Origin: Bacteroidia bacterium
GTDB taxonomy: Bacteria > Bacteroidota > Bacteroidia > J057
Reading direction: 5' to 3'
DNA: 64,000 bases
NCBI GenBank assembly: GCA_033391075.1
Contig: JAWPMV010000001.1
Coordinates: forward strand, 1,736,001-1,800,000
Positions 14,756 through 21,104 of the stretch are shown here, piece after piece (the first letter of the stretch is position 1; each line of letters starts with the position of its first letter). The notes under the pieces were generated by a model. The model was not told where the DNA came from. It did no database searches and saw only the letters and a program-made list of their open reading frames with translations. The position numbers were made by a program, and so were the translations under genes.

Positions 14756-16957
14756 CTACCCAATCAAGCCCAAATACCTTCCCATCCAATAGGGGAGTAG
14801 CCAAATATCGCCTGCGCTATATTCCCGATTCCCATTACCTCTTTCTCGGTCCAGATTGAAGGTGTTACCGTTATGTTTTTGGATGGGACGTTCGTAAGGA
14901 GAAAGGACCTCTTCAATGGGCTGGCCCCTGAAATTGTTGGGGAGAAATGCCAGATCTTTGCGATGGGAGTTTTTTATGTCCCAGTTGATCAGGTCCAGCG
15001 GATATTCTTGTAAATACCAGACTGCTTCTTCCAAATCATAATTTTCCCCGCCTAGCAGATGAGTCATGATATTCCATAGGGCCTCCTTTTCAGGTCTTTC
15101 TATTTCCCAATGCTCGATTATTGCTGCACGATACAGCTTTTTCAGGGAATCATTGAACGCATACCGATAAAGTCCCCAATAGCCCAGAAAATACATCTCA
15201 TCATCCGAATGGTTCCAGCTTTCAGACAGCATTTTGCTCCAATCATCAGCTTTTTCAGGAGCTGGACCAATCTCCTTCATAGGACGCAGGAGGTTTTCCA
15301 GGTAGCCATGCTCTTCCATCAACTCAAAGGCTTTTTCTCGGTATTTTTCTTTTTGGGTGAAATGATATGCTGTTTGTAACATGCTGATGATATTGGAAGA
15401 ATTGAGTTTCCGATCTCCGACCATGACAGGTCTCGCATTTACGTATTCGGGATTCCAGCGCCCCCAGGTAGTGGGTTTGCCATCATGATCGACCAGGTAG
15501 AGATCATTTTTCACAATATGGGACATAAGCGTATCCATCAATTGGATCGAAAGCTCTTTTATTTGTTGGTCAGGAATAAGTTCAGCTAAAACCCCAAATG
15601 CAAACATATGACCGATAGCTTCATCACTGCTAGTGGTAGATTTCCAGTCCCAGATCGAATCTCCTACAGCTAACCAGCGTTTTTTGTCCGAAAGTTTATT
15701 CATGTATCCGCTCCTCTCGAAAGAACGGGAAGGAAATCCCGGAACAGGATTGATGGTGTACAGACGCTCTAAAGCTGCCAAGGATTCGCGACAATTCTGC
15801 AAGGCTTCTTCCGATTGATCAACAGAGTATCTAAATGCCTGAGAGGCCAAATACATGCTCGTCCAGAGTCCATCATTGTCGGAATCTTTGAGCCTGCCAC
15901 TTGATGGATTCCCTTTCTTCAAATCGACTCTTTCTGCATTAAAACCAAAACGAATATGTCTTTGGCGGACCTGTTTTTCAAAATAATCGGCTTTTTGAGT
16001 AAGGGTAAAGGGTTTGTAAATCAATTGAGCTAATCCTGTCTCTGAGAGGATAAGAATTGAGCTATCCGGCCCCTGACTAATATGCTTGACCTTATTATCT
16101 GCCAGCCAACGATTGCCATAATAATAATCAAAGCTCCCATCTTCCTTTAGCATAAATACTCCTCCCTCAGTGCCAAACCAATAATGTCCATGGATGAAAG
16201 ATGCTGTTAAAATGGGACTGGAAGGAATAGCAGTAAAGGTTTCTGAGACCTCACCCTTCTCTACAAAAAAGAACTTATCAGATTGAGCAATAAGCAATTT
16301 CTCTCCCTGATTGCACATGCTGACAAAATTTCCCTTAAGGGAAAGCATGTTAAGCTTTTGACTTGCTGGTTTGAAGGTGTATATCCCAGAGGCTGTAAGA
16401 ATATCGAAGAAGGCATCTGAGGGCTTGAAATGGAGCTCCAATACTTCCTGATCCAATTCTGTTTCCCAGAGGAGCGCTTCCCCCTTAAAAAAATAGAGCC
16501 TTTTCCCTTCAGCCAGTAATAGTGAATCCGCATTCCCAATGGAAAATTGCTCGGCATCGGGGATTGAGTTCATAAAATAATAGCTCCCTGCCTGATTATT
16601 GCTCGAAATTTCATCTTTCCCCAGAAAATAGAATTCCTGCTCCTTAACCAGGATATCACTAAGCCCGGCATCCTGGAAGTGTAAGTAGGATTGATCGAGA
16701 TGAAGTTTGCCGGGGTATAACAATTGTCCCTCTGCAGCAGCCATCAGTCCTTCTGAGGATAAGACCTTAATGTTTCCATTTCGATTAGCATAAGCTTTCT
16801 GCAGACTTATTCCTTCTTCTGCATAAAACTTGATGCTATACCTTTGGACAAAGGGAGTATCTGTATGTTTGATTTTTTCCTGTGGCTGGCAAGCTATAAG
16901 GAATAAGTTTGATACTATAGAAAGGAGGCAGATGGAAAAGAGGAAAGAGCATTTCAT
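14756..16957 (-). CDS. Large lipoprotein: propeller-like N-half, helical toroid-like C-half
   Basis: A 733-residue protein of unknown role. A lipoprotein signal ends at Cys23 (LFLIACQ). Residues ~40-330 are short beta-strand repeats, including YWFGTEGGVFMLKEDGS and KVKHISQGPDSSILILSETG, which look like regulator-propeller blades. Residues ~345-720 are helix-rich and resemble an alpha/alpha toroid such as those of glycan-processing enzymes, with DSDNDGLWTSMYLASQAFRY, PTTWGRWNPEYVNARPVMVG and NIISMLQTAYHF. I cannot point to a catalytic pair with confidence. It is probably periplasmic or surface-exposed and bound by lipid. It is transcribed alone and divergently from the MlaF-like gene. Annotated relatives are usually called hypothetical. 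Confidence 0.75.
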   Translation of the reverse strand: MKCSFLFSICLLSIVSNLFLIACQPQEKIKHTDTPFVQRYSIKFYAEEGISLQKAYANRNGNIKVLSSEGLMAAAEGQLLYPGKLHLDQSYLHFQDAGLSDILVKEQEFYFLGKDEISSNNQAGSYYFMNSIPDAEQFSIGNADSLLLAEGKRLYFFKGEALLWETELDQEVLELHFKPSDAFFDILTASGIYTFKPASQKLNMLSLKGNFVSMCNQGEKLLIAQSDKFFFVEKGEVSETFTAIPSSPILTASFIHGHYWFGTEGGVFMLKEDGSFDYYYGNRWLADNKVKHISQGPDSSILILSETGLAQLIYKPFTLTQKADYFEKQVRQRHIRFGFNAERVDLKKGNPSSGRLKDSDNDGLWTSMYLASQAFRYSVDQSEEALQNCRESLAALERLYTINPVPGFPSRSFERSGYMNKLSDKKRWLAVGDSIWDWKSTTSSDEAIGHMFAFGVLAELIPDQQIKELSIQLMDTLMSHIVKNDLYLVDHDGKPTTWGRWNPEYVNARPVMVGDRKLNSSNIISMLQTAYHFTQKEKYREKAFELMEEHGYLENLLRPMKEIGPAPEKADDWSKMLSESWNHSDDEMYFLGYWGLYRYAFNDSLKKLYRAAIIEHWEIERPEKEALWNIMTHLLGGENYDLEEAVWYLQEYPLDLINWDIKNSHRKDLAFLPNNFRGQPIEEVLSPYERPIQKHNGNTFNLDRERGNGNREYSAGDIWLLPYWMGRYLGLIG

Positions 16958-18113: not shown

Positions 18114-21104
18114 TCAACTTTCCAAATAATCCTTGCACAACTTTATGGCTTGCTGTAAACTCAGGTTAAGGCTTTCATTTTTTGCTAATTGAAAAGCCTC
18201 ACTGCCCAGCATTTCACTTAGATTACTTTGTAATTTTGCTCCAATTTCTTTTTCACTGTTGGGCACAGGCATATGTATAGAGCGCCTGAAAGCTTGAGCA
18301 ATGTGGAACAATGTTGCGGCTAGAGAAAAATCCTTTCTGACTTCGGCAAGGCGGGCAGTAAACTCAAGGGCAAGACATGCTGTTAGGTAGGAGCTTTGGC
18401 TTTTATCGAGTTTAAGCAGCCTTAAAGTATAGAATTTAAGTTCCTCATATTTACCCAGGGCAAAGGATATATGGCATTTGGTCCTGTAGGTATTTATCTG
18501 CCACATTAACGGAAGGTCCTTTTTAGAAAAAACGGGAAGGTATTCCTCAATAATGGCTTCAGCTTCATCCGGAAGATTTTTGGATAGAGCTAATCGAGCA
18601 CGTATATCTGAGAGGATAATAAGGGTTACCTCTGAGGGACTTAGTTGGTTCCACTCATGTGCCTCATCTACCAATTCCTGGCATTTTTCATATTCCCCCA
18701 ATTCGAAATACGCCTGGCAAGACTGATTGATGGCGTGTTGAAGAACGGTCAATTCCCTGGCTTCTCTATGCCTTTTCAGAGAAAACTTTAAGAGATCTAT
18801 GGCTTTCTGGTATTCCGCTTTGTAAATCAAGGGAAGGGACATATTGGAATAGTTATATCCCATCCATCTTTCATTGCCAAGTTCTTTTGCCATGGGAACA
18901 ATCTTTTCAAAGGTAGTTACAGCCTGATCCAGTTCTCCCTTTAAAAAATGGAGAAAGCCCAGGTTGTTGTGAACTCCTATAGAAAATGGGTGAGTTCCCA
19001 TGGTTTTGAGTGGAGCTTTCAGTCTCTCAAAGCTCTTTTCTGCTTGGGTCAAATTCCCGCTGTTGACCTGGACAAAAAAGAGATGATTCAGGGCCTCCAG
19101 ACTTTTTTTATCATTTCCTTCTTTCGTAAAAAAGTCGAGGCAATCTTTGAAAATATCTTCCAGGCCCTTCATGTCAGCCAGATAGAAGCACATAACTCCA
19201 AAGGAGAGTTTTGCCTCGATTTGGTCTTTTTTGATTTCCTCGCTAACGGGAATAGCCAGGATTTTACTCAAGATCTGTATGCCTTCTTTGACGGAACCTT
19301 GATTGCTCCAAAAAGGCCGCATTGCCTGACCCAGGCGATAGGCTTTTTTCATTTCTCCCAACTCAATGGCATACTCTATGGCTGCTTTTAAATTGGTAAG
19401 TTCCAGATCCAGAATTGATGTCCACTTTTGGGCTTCTTCATGGCCGGAGCTCAGTTTTTTGGAAGCATTTTCAGCTAATTGCAGGTAATAGTCAATATGA
19501 GCCAGCTTATATATTTCGTCTTTAACGGCTAGTTTTAATTGATCTGAAGCAAATTCTCTAATGGTTTCTAACATATAGAAACGAGAGGCCCTTTCTTCTA
19601 TTTTGATGAGGCTTTTATCTAGCAGATCTTCTATGCCTTCCTCAAAATCCCAGTCTGCCAGTCCGTTTTGAATACATACCGCATGAATGGCCTCAAAATC
19701 GGAGCCTCCCACAAAAACCGATAGACGATTCAATAACTCTTGTTCTTCCTTATCCAGGAGCTTGTAGCTCCAATTTATGGTCTGCCTCAAGGTCTGATGC
19801 CTTTCAGGCATCTGCACATCTCTGGTTTTCAGTACATCCAGGCTTTGCCCGAGTCGTTCGAGTAAAGTTTCTGGGGAAAATATTTTAGTTCTTGCAGCAG
19901 CCAGCTCAAGGGCTAAGGGCAATCCATCGAGACGTGTGCATATTTCAGCGATATAGCTGGAATTCTTGCTACTTAATTCAAAACTTCGCCTGGCTTGCTT
20001 AGCGCGTTGGCAAAAAAGGTCAATGGCTGGATTTGCCCTCAAAACATCCAGATCATTTATCTGTGAAGGTTTAGGCAAAGGAAGAGGTTCTACGGGGAAC
20101 TCTACCTCGCCGGCAATATTCAAAATGATCCTACTGGTTACTATTATTTTTATTTCCGGACAATTAATGAGCAATTCGGCGAGCCATTGACTGGCAGATA
20201 CAATTTGTTCAAAATTGTCCAGGATCAGGAGCATCTGTTTGCCTGCCAGGTACTGCATGAGATGGTCCGTCGCGTCGCGAATCCCGGGTTTCAAGCCCAG
20301 ACTTTCTGTAATTGCAAAAGCCAGCATATCAGGATCCGTAATGGCAGCAAGAGAAATCCATCTTACGCCTTCTCGAAAATCGAATTGGATACTTTCAGCA
20401 ACTTTTAGGGATAATCTGGTCTTTCCTGATCCTCCGGGCCCTGTTAAGGTTAGCAGAGGGTTGTTTCTGACCAATAACGCTATTTCCTCCTGTTCTCGTT
20501 CTCTTCCTACAAAACTGGTGAGAGATCTGGGGAGTTTGAAGGTATTTTCTTTTCGCCTCCCTTTTCCACTTAATTCATCGGGCGCAGGTACGATTATTCC
20601 CTCATGCTGGACAGCAAACAATTCCTTCGCTTTCTGGACATTCTTAAATTGGAAGGCACCCATTGAACGAAAGGAAAATTGTTGTTGATTTTTGACCTGC
20701 TCCACAATTTCGCCTGATACCAAAATACTCCCTGTCGCTGCGAAAGATTCAACGCGTGAAGCTACGTTTACTGCATCCCCGATTAGTTGGTCATTTTCAA
20801 TCACTACATCCCCCAAATGTATGCCTATCCGGAGTGGTACTTCTATGGGTTCTTTCAATCGAAGTTGCATGTCAACGGCACATTGAATAGCCTCGACCAC
20901 ACTGGGGAAAATGCTTAGAGTACCGTCTCCAAAATACTGAATGATCTGACCATGAAATTCCTGATGAAGGTGATTGAATACTTCTCTATGGCGCTCTCGC
21001 TTTTTCCTTGCCAAGGCCTCATCTTGCTGCATCAGTGCTGTATATCCTACCATATCGGTAAACATAATGGCAGCTAGCATTCGCCGGGAGTTTTTTGGCG
21101 TCAT
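18114..21104 (-). CDS. Class III nucleotidyl cyclase - AAA/NB-ARC-like ATPase - TPR signalling protein
   Basis: A 996-residue cytosolic multidomain protein. Residues ~8-165 are a class III cyclase domain with the metal aspartates Asp17 (FTDMVGY) and Asp60 (YFGDG) and the transition-state pair Asn113/Arg117 (GDAVNVASR). Residues ~190-500 are a STAND-type ATPase: FVGRERE, Walker A GPGGSGKT (222-229), Walker B LLILDN (292-297), LPLALELAAARTK. The rest is TPR-like helices and no C-terminal DNA-binding domain is visible. The two positions that normally choose the base (Lys and Asp) are Gln56 and Gln106 here, as judged by spacing from Asp60 and Asn113. The mycobacterial Rv0386 cyclase, with a similar domain order, also departs from the Lys/Asp rule. 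Product (cAMP, cGMP or none) is uncertain. Confidence 0.9.
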   Translation of the reverse strand: MTPKNSRRMLAAIMFTDMVGYTALMQQDEALARKKRERHREVFNHLHQEFHGQIIQYFGDGTLSIFPSVVEAIQCAVDMQLRLKEPIEVPLRIGIHLGDVVIENDQLIGDAVNVASRVESFAATGSILVSGEIVEQVKNQQQFSFRSMGAFQFKNVQKAKELFAVQHEGIIVPAPDELSGKGRRKENTFKLPRSLTSFVGREREQEEIALLVRNNPLLTLTGPGGSGKTRLSLKVAESIQFDFREGVRWISLAAITDPDMLAFAITESLGLKPGIRDATDHLMQYLAGKQMLLILDNFEQIVSASQWLAELLINCPEIKIIVTSRIILNIAGEVEFPVEPLPLPKPSQINDLDVLRANPAIDLFCQRAKQARRSFELSSKNSSYIAEICTRLDGLPLALELAAARTKIFSPETLLERLGQSLDVLKTRDVQMPERHQTLRQTINWSYKLLDKEEQELLNRLSVFVGGSDFEAIHAVCIQNGLADWDFEEGIEDLLDKSLIKIEERASRFYMLETIREFASDQLKLAVKDEIYKLAHIDYYLQLAENASKKLSSGHEEAQKWTSILDLELTNLKAAIEYAIELGEMKKAYRLGQAMRPFWSNQGSVKEGIQILSKILAIPVSEEIKKDQIEAKLSFGVMCFYLADMKGLEDIFKDCLDFFTKEGNDKKSLEALNHLFFVQVNSGNLTQAEKSFERLKAPLKTMGTHPFSIGVHNNLGFLHFLKGELDQAVTTFEKIVPMAKELGNERWMGYNYSNMSLPLIYKAEYQKAIDLLKFSLKRHREARELTVLQHAINQSCQAYFELGEYEKCQELVDEAHEWNQLSPSEVTLIILSDIRARLALSKNLPDEAEAIIEEYLPVFSKKDLPLMWQINTYRTKCHISFALGKYEELKFYTLRLLKLDKSQSSYLTACLALEFTARLAEVRKDFSLAATLFHIAQAFRRSIHMPVPNSEKEIGAKLQSNLSEMLGSEAFQLAKNESLNLSLQQAIKLCKDYLES

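Follow-up and report, generated by a model that had tools for sequence, protein, structure and literature searches.

Does a class III cyclase with glutamine at both base-selecting positions read its substrate through a special pair of residues, or does it show a state that is ordinary in its lineage? This question is raised by a gene located at positions 18114–21104, on the reverse strand, of the window, that is, the 64-kb stretch of a Bacteroidia genome analyzed here. According to the list of open reading frames (ORFs) and their translations, the gene starts with ATG and contains no internal stop. Translation, Pfam domains, and a structure model concur in describing its 996-aa product as a cyclase/NB-ARC (STAND)/TPR protein. 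A sequence-only reading had taken its two glutamines for a special pair with an output of its own and had proposed a signaling or defense-like switch.

Domain Organization and Active Site

The N-terminal part is a class III cyclase domain. The Pfam model Guanylate_cyc matches residues 11–158 (E = 2.6e-14) with a score of 53.7 bits for a curated cut-off of 21.9, and the phmmer alignment to Ma1120 spans residues 11–165 (positions 20610–21074, reverse strand). In Foldseek searches with the predicted model, this head is closest to Ma1120 (4wp9, TMt 0.86) and Rv1900c (1ybu, TMt 0.91, rmsd 1.7). It is followed by an NB-ARC domain at residues 216–448 (19761–20459, reverse strand; Pfam E = 4.3e-11), in which Walker A (GPGGSGKT), Walker B (LLILDN), the sensor motif TSR, and GLPLA are readily recognized. 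Together with a winged helix and a repeat sensor, these motifs, which are intact in all nine members of the family, identify a STAND ATPase. The remainder, from about residue 552 to 995 (18120–19451, reverse strand), is an all-helical arm with a TPR sensor, as indicated by the TPR families of Pfam (TPR_12 at residues 711–777, E = 2.1e-10) and by helix pairs in the model. The latter was built from a seven-sequence alignment (mean pLDDT 81.4, pTM 0.60) and predicts regularly paired TPR-like helices up to the C terminus; the Pfam scan likewise revealed no C-terminal LuxR HTH and, at E ≤ 0.001, no DNA-binding domain of any kind in the 996-aa protein. The whole chain is closest to 6mfv, a STAND protein with a TPR sensor (E = 3.2e-12, TMq 0.32), and also matches Apaf-1 (1z6t). 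The architecture first read from the letters, including the missing DNA-binding end, is therefore confirmed. Two antisense ORFs within the gene (18948–19391 and 20215–20688, forward strand) were taken as shadow ORFs. Scans for promoters and terminators gave numbers near the shuffled expectation (8 vs. 5.9 and 6 vs. 3.8, respectively).

The catalytic residues of class III cyclases are all present: after verification of the numbering, D17 and D60 are the two metal aspartates, N113 and R117 the transition-state residues, and K154 completes the set. These five residues are invariant in the nine cyclase–STAND–TPR proteins; the sequence-only reading had already noted the first four in the query. The catalytic residues are also unchanged over the 105 rows of our tree, and the D/D/N/R signature is kept in 44 of the 45 cyclases of the same genome and in 93 of 94 others. 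Conversely, the canonical adenylyl cyclase readers (Lys with Asp, or with Thr/Ser) are replaced by Gln56 (codon at 20937–20939, reverse strand) and Gln106 (20787–20789, reverse strand). Both were placed by the family alignment and by the phmmer alignment to Ma1120, in which they face Lys101 and Asp157 without any gap in these stretches (VVKSQGDG and GDDLFG in 4wp9). In the same type of alignment, Rv1900c (1ybt) has Asn and Asp opposite them. In Ma1120, as its published mutagenesis primers show, K101 precedes the metal Asp by four residues, while D157 stands directly in front of L-F-G (PMC4215837). As the alignment is gap-free and these primers fix K101 and D157, the observation of two glutamines at the base-selecting places stands, and no displaced Lys or Asp was found by alignment with class III cyclases. 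Residues 104–107 are modeled with a pLDDT below 50, so that the placement of the Gln106 side chain relies on the sequence alignment. The Glu expected of a guanylyl cyclase is not found at the Lys place, which is occupied by Gln56, and the residue ahead of Arg117 is Ser116.

A Lineage Trait at Position 56 and a Variable Partner at Position 106

Glutamine at the Lys place is a lineage trait. The 9.49-Mb genome encodes 45 class III cyclases scoring above the Pfam cut-off, with Gln in 34, Glu in 7, and Lys in only 4 of them at this place, and Gln56 is found in all nine members of the cyclase–STAND–TPR family. It is likewise frequent in two genomes of the same taxonomic family (10/14 and 6/8), and occurs in 3 of the 11 cyclases of the more distant genome G369, two of whose non-Gln rows come from one poorly aligned 1379-residue frame; the single cyclase of G001 lacks it. 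In two adjoining cyclase domains of G369, the Lys place is occupied by Leu and the Asp place by Met. Among domains from other genomes, 58 of 94 have Gln, a share that is no census as these domains were picked by likeness to the query. Gln is not the rule among the best-scoring cyclases of the phylum: at 29 loci from 148 genomes, representing only the highest scorers to PF00211, we counted 28 Lys/Asp and one Glu/Asp pairs, and no Gln.

Removal of identical or contained copies reduced the 148 aligned rows to 139. Entropy was computed on the 104 rows with a cyclase that begins ahead of residue 120 of the frame; the tree adds L124, and 35 rows, including L038, were left out. In rows selected for Gln, the zero entropy of column 56 follows by construction. 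Without this selection, position 56 changed 4 times in 79 rows and 6 times in 105.

Position 106 behaves differently. In the nine cyclase–STAND–TPR proteins (the query, L033, L034, L124, L035, L036, L123, L038, and L037), it is Q, N, N, G, A, D, E, R, and R, respectively; L038, which lies outside the Pfam scan of relatives, was counted since it aligns along its length. Seven states in nine proteins are reached by only 7 of the 163 gap-free columns. The starred six-row set that contains the query in the tree of 105 heads shows five states. Among N-terminal heads, Lys is partnered by Asp in 25 of 25 cases, while Gln is partnered by nine different residues in 69. Over the 79 rows that remain without the Lys clade, however, it changed 13 times, less often than its neighbors (21, 24, 21, and 17) and close to the median of 15. 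It is steady inside subfamilies and differs between them, being mostly Gly, with Glu in the Marinimicrobia set and Asn or His in tandem groups. It may therefore matter in some subfamilies, and its pattern across the wider lineage fits some part in specificity. In the query's own cyclase–STAND–TPR family it looks free, and as the residue differs in almost every relative, Gln106 probably represents no special new code. The idea of a Gln/Gln pair with its own output is thus not supported, as one glutamine is the ordinary state of the genome and the other is found at this position in the query only among the nine proteins.

Product, Switching, and Rival Readings

We consider it probable, with somewhat better than even confidence, that the protein is a soluble one-component cyclase switched by its own sensor, with cAMP as the most likely product, cGMP as a possible side product, and Gln56 as the main base reader. 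The order of the domains, their intact motifs, the invariant Gln, and its variable partner are observed; the product, the switching, the inducer, and the base contacts are what we infer here. The TPR region would act as sensor and the N-terminal cyclase as effector, with NB-ARC between them as a switch operated by ADP and ATP that would keep the cyclase heads apart at rest. Binding of an inducer would open the switch, ATP would be loaded, and protomers would assemble, allowing two heads to pair as a head-to-tail dimer that forms a 3',5'-cyclic nucleotide. Such switching is suggested by the STAND motifs, intact in all nine relatives. Work on MalT describes how STAND proteins, closed when they hold ADP, open and assemble in their ATP form (PMC4381067), and work on AfsR an effector inhibited by NOD and TPR and relieved by ATP (PMC10936776). 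In the active site, the amide of Gln56 could act as a donor toward N1 of adenine and as an acceptor for its 6-amino group or, once flipped, serve guanine. As this amide would fit the edge of either purine, the second position need not be kept. Such base reading agrees with the amide switch reportedly proposed for Rv0386 of Mycobacterium tuberculosis and with the guanylyl side activity of that enzyme. On the other hand, both Gln and Asn reportedly mattered in Rv0386, which argues against a single sufficient residue. In the literature searched, no biochemical study of a Gln/Gln or Gln/Gly cyclase was found, and a search over open-access papers found none on Gln-type cyclases of Bacteroidota.

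Gln56 and Gln106 might instead be a selected pair that jointly reads one base, as an amide switch giving mixed cAMP/cGMP or another output. Rv0386 reportedly has nonstandard Gln/Asn base readers, mutants of which were reportedly studied by Castro in 2005, with an "amide switch" proposed in that study. The closest relatives L033 and L034 carry Gln/Asn, likewise an amide pair and the one reported for Rv0386, from which the Gln/Gln of the query differs. Although the reduced variation of position 106 relative to its neighbors across the 79 related rows also speaks for joint reading, the diversity of this residue among same-architecture members and within the starred clade makes us regard this explanation as unlikely. 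In a more far-reaching reading, for this lineage and most cyclases of this genome, a single invariant Gln with a flippable amide would accept adenine, guanine, or even a pyrimidine, leaving the second reader free, so that the cyclases of this genome would differ by their sensors and some would make mixed or unusual cyclic nucleotides. We hold this as a tentative idea with a low chance of being right. If one Gln does suffice to choose the base, many class III cyclases of some Bacteroidota do not follow the Lys/Asp rule of the textbooks, and products should be measured, not assumed.

That the query is a guanylyl cyclase appears quite improbable. Gln is nearer than Lys to the Glu of guanylyl cyclases, Glu itself occupies the Lys place in the seven cyclases of the same genome mentioned above, and Rv0386 (Mclx1) is described as an adenylyl cyclase with a 20% guanylyl side activity (PMC4452763, in part). 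However, position 56 is not Glu, and a Tyr before the Arg, which favors GTP in Cya2 and was also part of a triple mutant of Ma1120 according to passages of PMC4215837, is replaced here by Ser116, which speaks against a strong preference for GTP. It is more doubtful still that the head is catalytically dead and merely binds nucleotide or dimerizes: canonical receptors are few in the genome and the activity of the query is a prediction, but the metal aspartates, Asn113, Arg117, and Lys154 are kept in all nine family members and over the 105 rows of the tree. Least of all do we believe in a pyrimidine cyclase of a Pycsar-like anti-phage system. PADLOC models of PycC do match the cyclase domain (E = 3.9e-6, 3.7e-5, and 3.4e-4), but these matches are confined to the core common to class III enzymes, and Guanylate_cyc matches much more strongly. 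The published pyrimidine readers, as given in the accessible part of PMC11224242, are F100/R142/Q144 in EaPycC, F60/K104/F109 in AnPycC, and Y50/D94/R97 in BcPycC; by spacing to the metal Asp, a comparison made for EaPycC only, Gln56 lies at the place of R142 and Phe58 at that of Q144. No TM or TIR effector adjoins the gene among the neighbors examined.

These neighbors encode an ABC ATPase, a beta-lactamase-like hydrolase, a Usp protein, a LytTR two-component pair, a peptidase, an Na/H antiporter, a dehydrogenase, an alginate lyase, and a SusD-like protein, that is, a metabolic and regulatory neighborhood. Pfam and PADLOC scans of these neighbors detected neither a Pycsar partner gene nor a defense island. 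Judged from the gene and its surroundings, a defense role for the query is not supported and seems improbable. In the vicinity, a 733-residue protein (14756–16957, reverse strand) with a lipoprotein-like start by eye has no Pfam or NCBIfam match.

Cyclic-nucleotide receptors were considered at the scale of the genome. Among 33 cyclic-nucleotide-binding proteins found, 32 were read, and the full G-E...R-S cassette is kept, by eye, in only two of them (L125 and L132), compared with 45 cyclases; none of the genome's cyclic-nucleotide-binding matches lies inside the 64-kb window. Elsewhere, at C1:6692288–6694528, the best-scoring of these proteins, L125, and a Lys/Asp cyclase (L004) are encoded in opposite orientations, some 1.4 kb from each other. 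A further locus outside the window (C1:7291862–7325378; L114 and L115) contains twelve class III cyclase domains in 34 kb. Five Glu/Asn heads and four Gln/His heads form very tight groups there, suggesting recent tandem duplication.

The STAND–TPR Chassis and Known Systems

A paralogue in the same genome, L123 (C1:1695859–1699245), is located about 55 kb from the query gene and shares 33.5% identity with its product over 951 columns. Its 1128 residues comprise the same cyclase, NB-ARC, and TPR parts, with Gln at position 56. It differs by Glu at position 106 and by a C-terminal HTH of AraC type (HTH_18, E = 5.3e-23). Within Bacteroidota, L123 thereby parallels the cyclase/LuxR proteins of mycobacteria. 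In the distant relative L141, an N-terminal AraC-type HTH replaces the cyclase on the common STAND–TPR part, and L142, judged from its sequence, appears to have the same replacement. The HTH end of L123 and this swap in two distant relatives lead us to view the STAND–TPR part as a chassis with swappable effectors; the exchange between a cyclase and AraC-type DNA binding shows how such switches trade outputs. The STAND–TPR half is matched by Rhodococcus plasmid proteins annotated as protein kinases; matches to plasmid proteins, several of which bear the name pknK, extend over as much as residues 131–834 of the query. Full-length relatives are rare: scoring the two best candidates per genome, we found them at E ≤ 1e-90 in 2 of the 395 class genomes, the query's own included, and at 1e-60 relatives occur in 4 of 395 phylum genomes, two of them without cyclase. 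Among the 11 sequences compared, window included, several of them short loci with partly absent flanks, no neighbor gene is conserved beyond the family protein, with the sole exception of the next gene shared by L141 and L142. A 30% likeness between LytTR regulators of the window and the L033 locus was taken as chance.

Annotation pipelines tend to name such proteins adenylate cyclases by fold alone. The cyclase heads of Ma1120 and Rv1900c have the same fold and an alignable active site, but retain Lys101/Asp157 and Asn with Asp, respectively, and the matched chains are without a STAND–TPR part. In MalT, AfsR, and PknK, as in the query, a NOD and a TPR sensor are joined to a terminal effector, which is DNA-binding or a kinase in these proteins and a cyclase here (PMC4381067 and PMC10936776). 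The guanylyl cyclase Cya2 of Synechocystis, as described in passages of PMC4886424, uses a single Glu making two hydrogen bonds, with Gly as the second residue. This Glu/Gly arrangement parallels the common Gln/Gly of the query's lineage, but differs by Glu in place of Gln and by the Tyr before Arg. The early comparison with the Rv0386 type proved apt: from the descriptions available in PMC4452763, Rv0386 and the CHD/NB-ARC/LuxR proteins have an N-terminal class III cyclase followed by NB-ARC, as does the query, likened here by description. An alternative substrate-binding mechanism is attributed to Rv0386 in the excerpts of PMC4452763 and PMC3466318. The query differs from Rv0386 in being without the C-terminal LuxR HTH that defines the mclx family. 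It joins a known type, and the lineage-wide replacement of Lys by Gln is its most interesting part.
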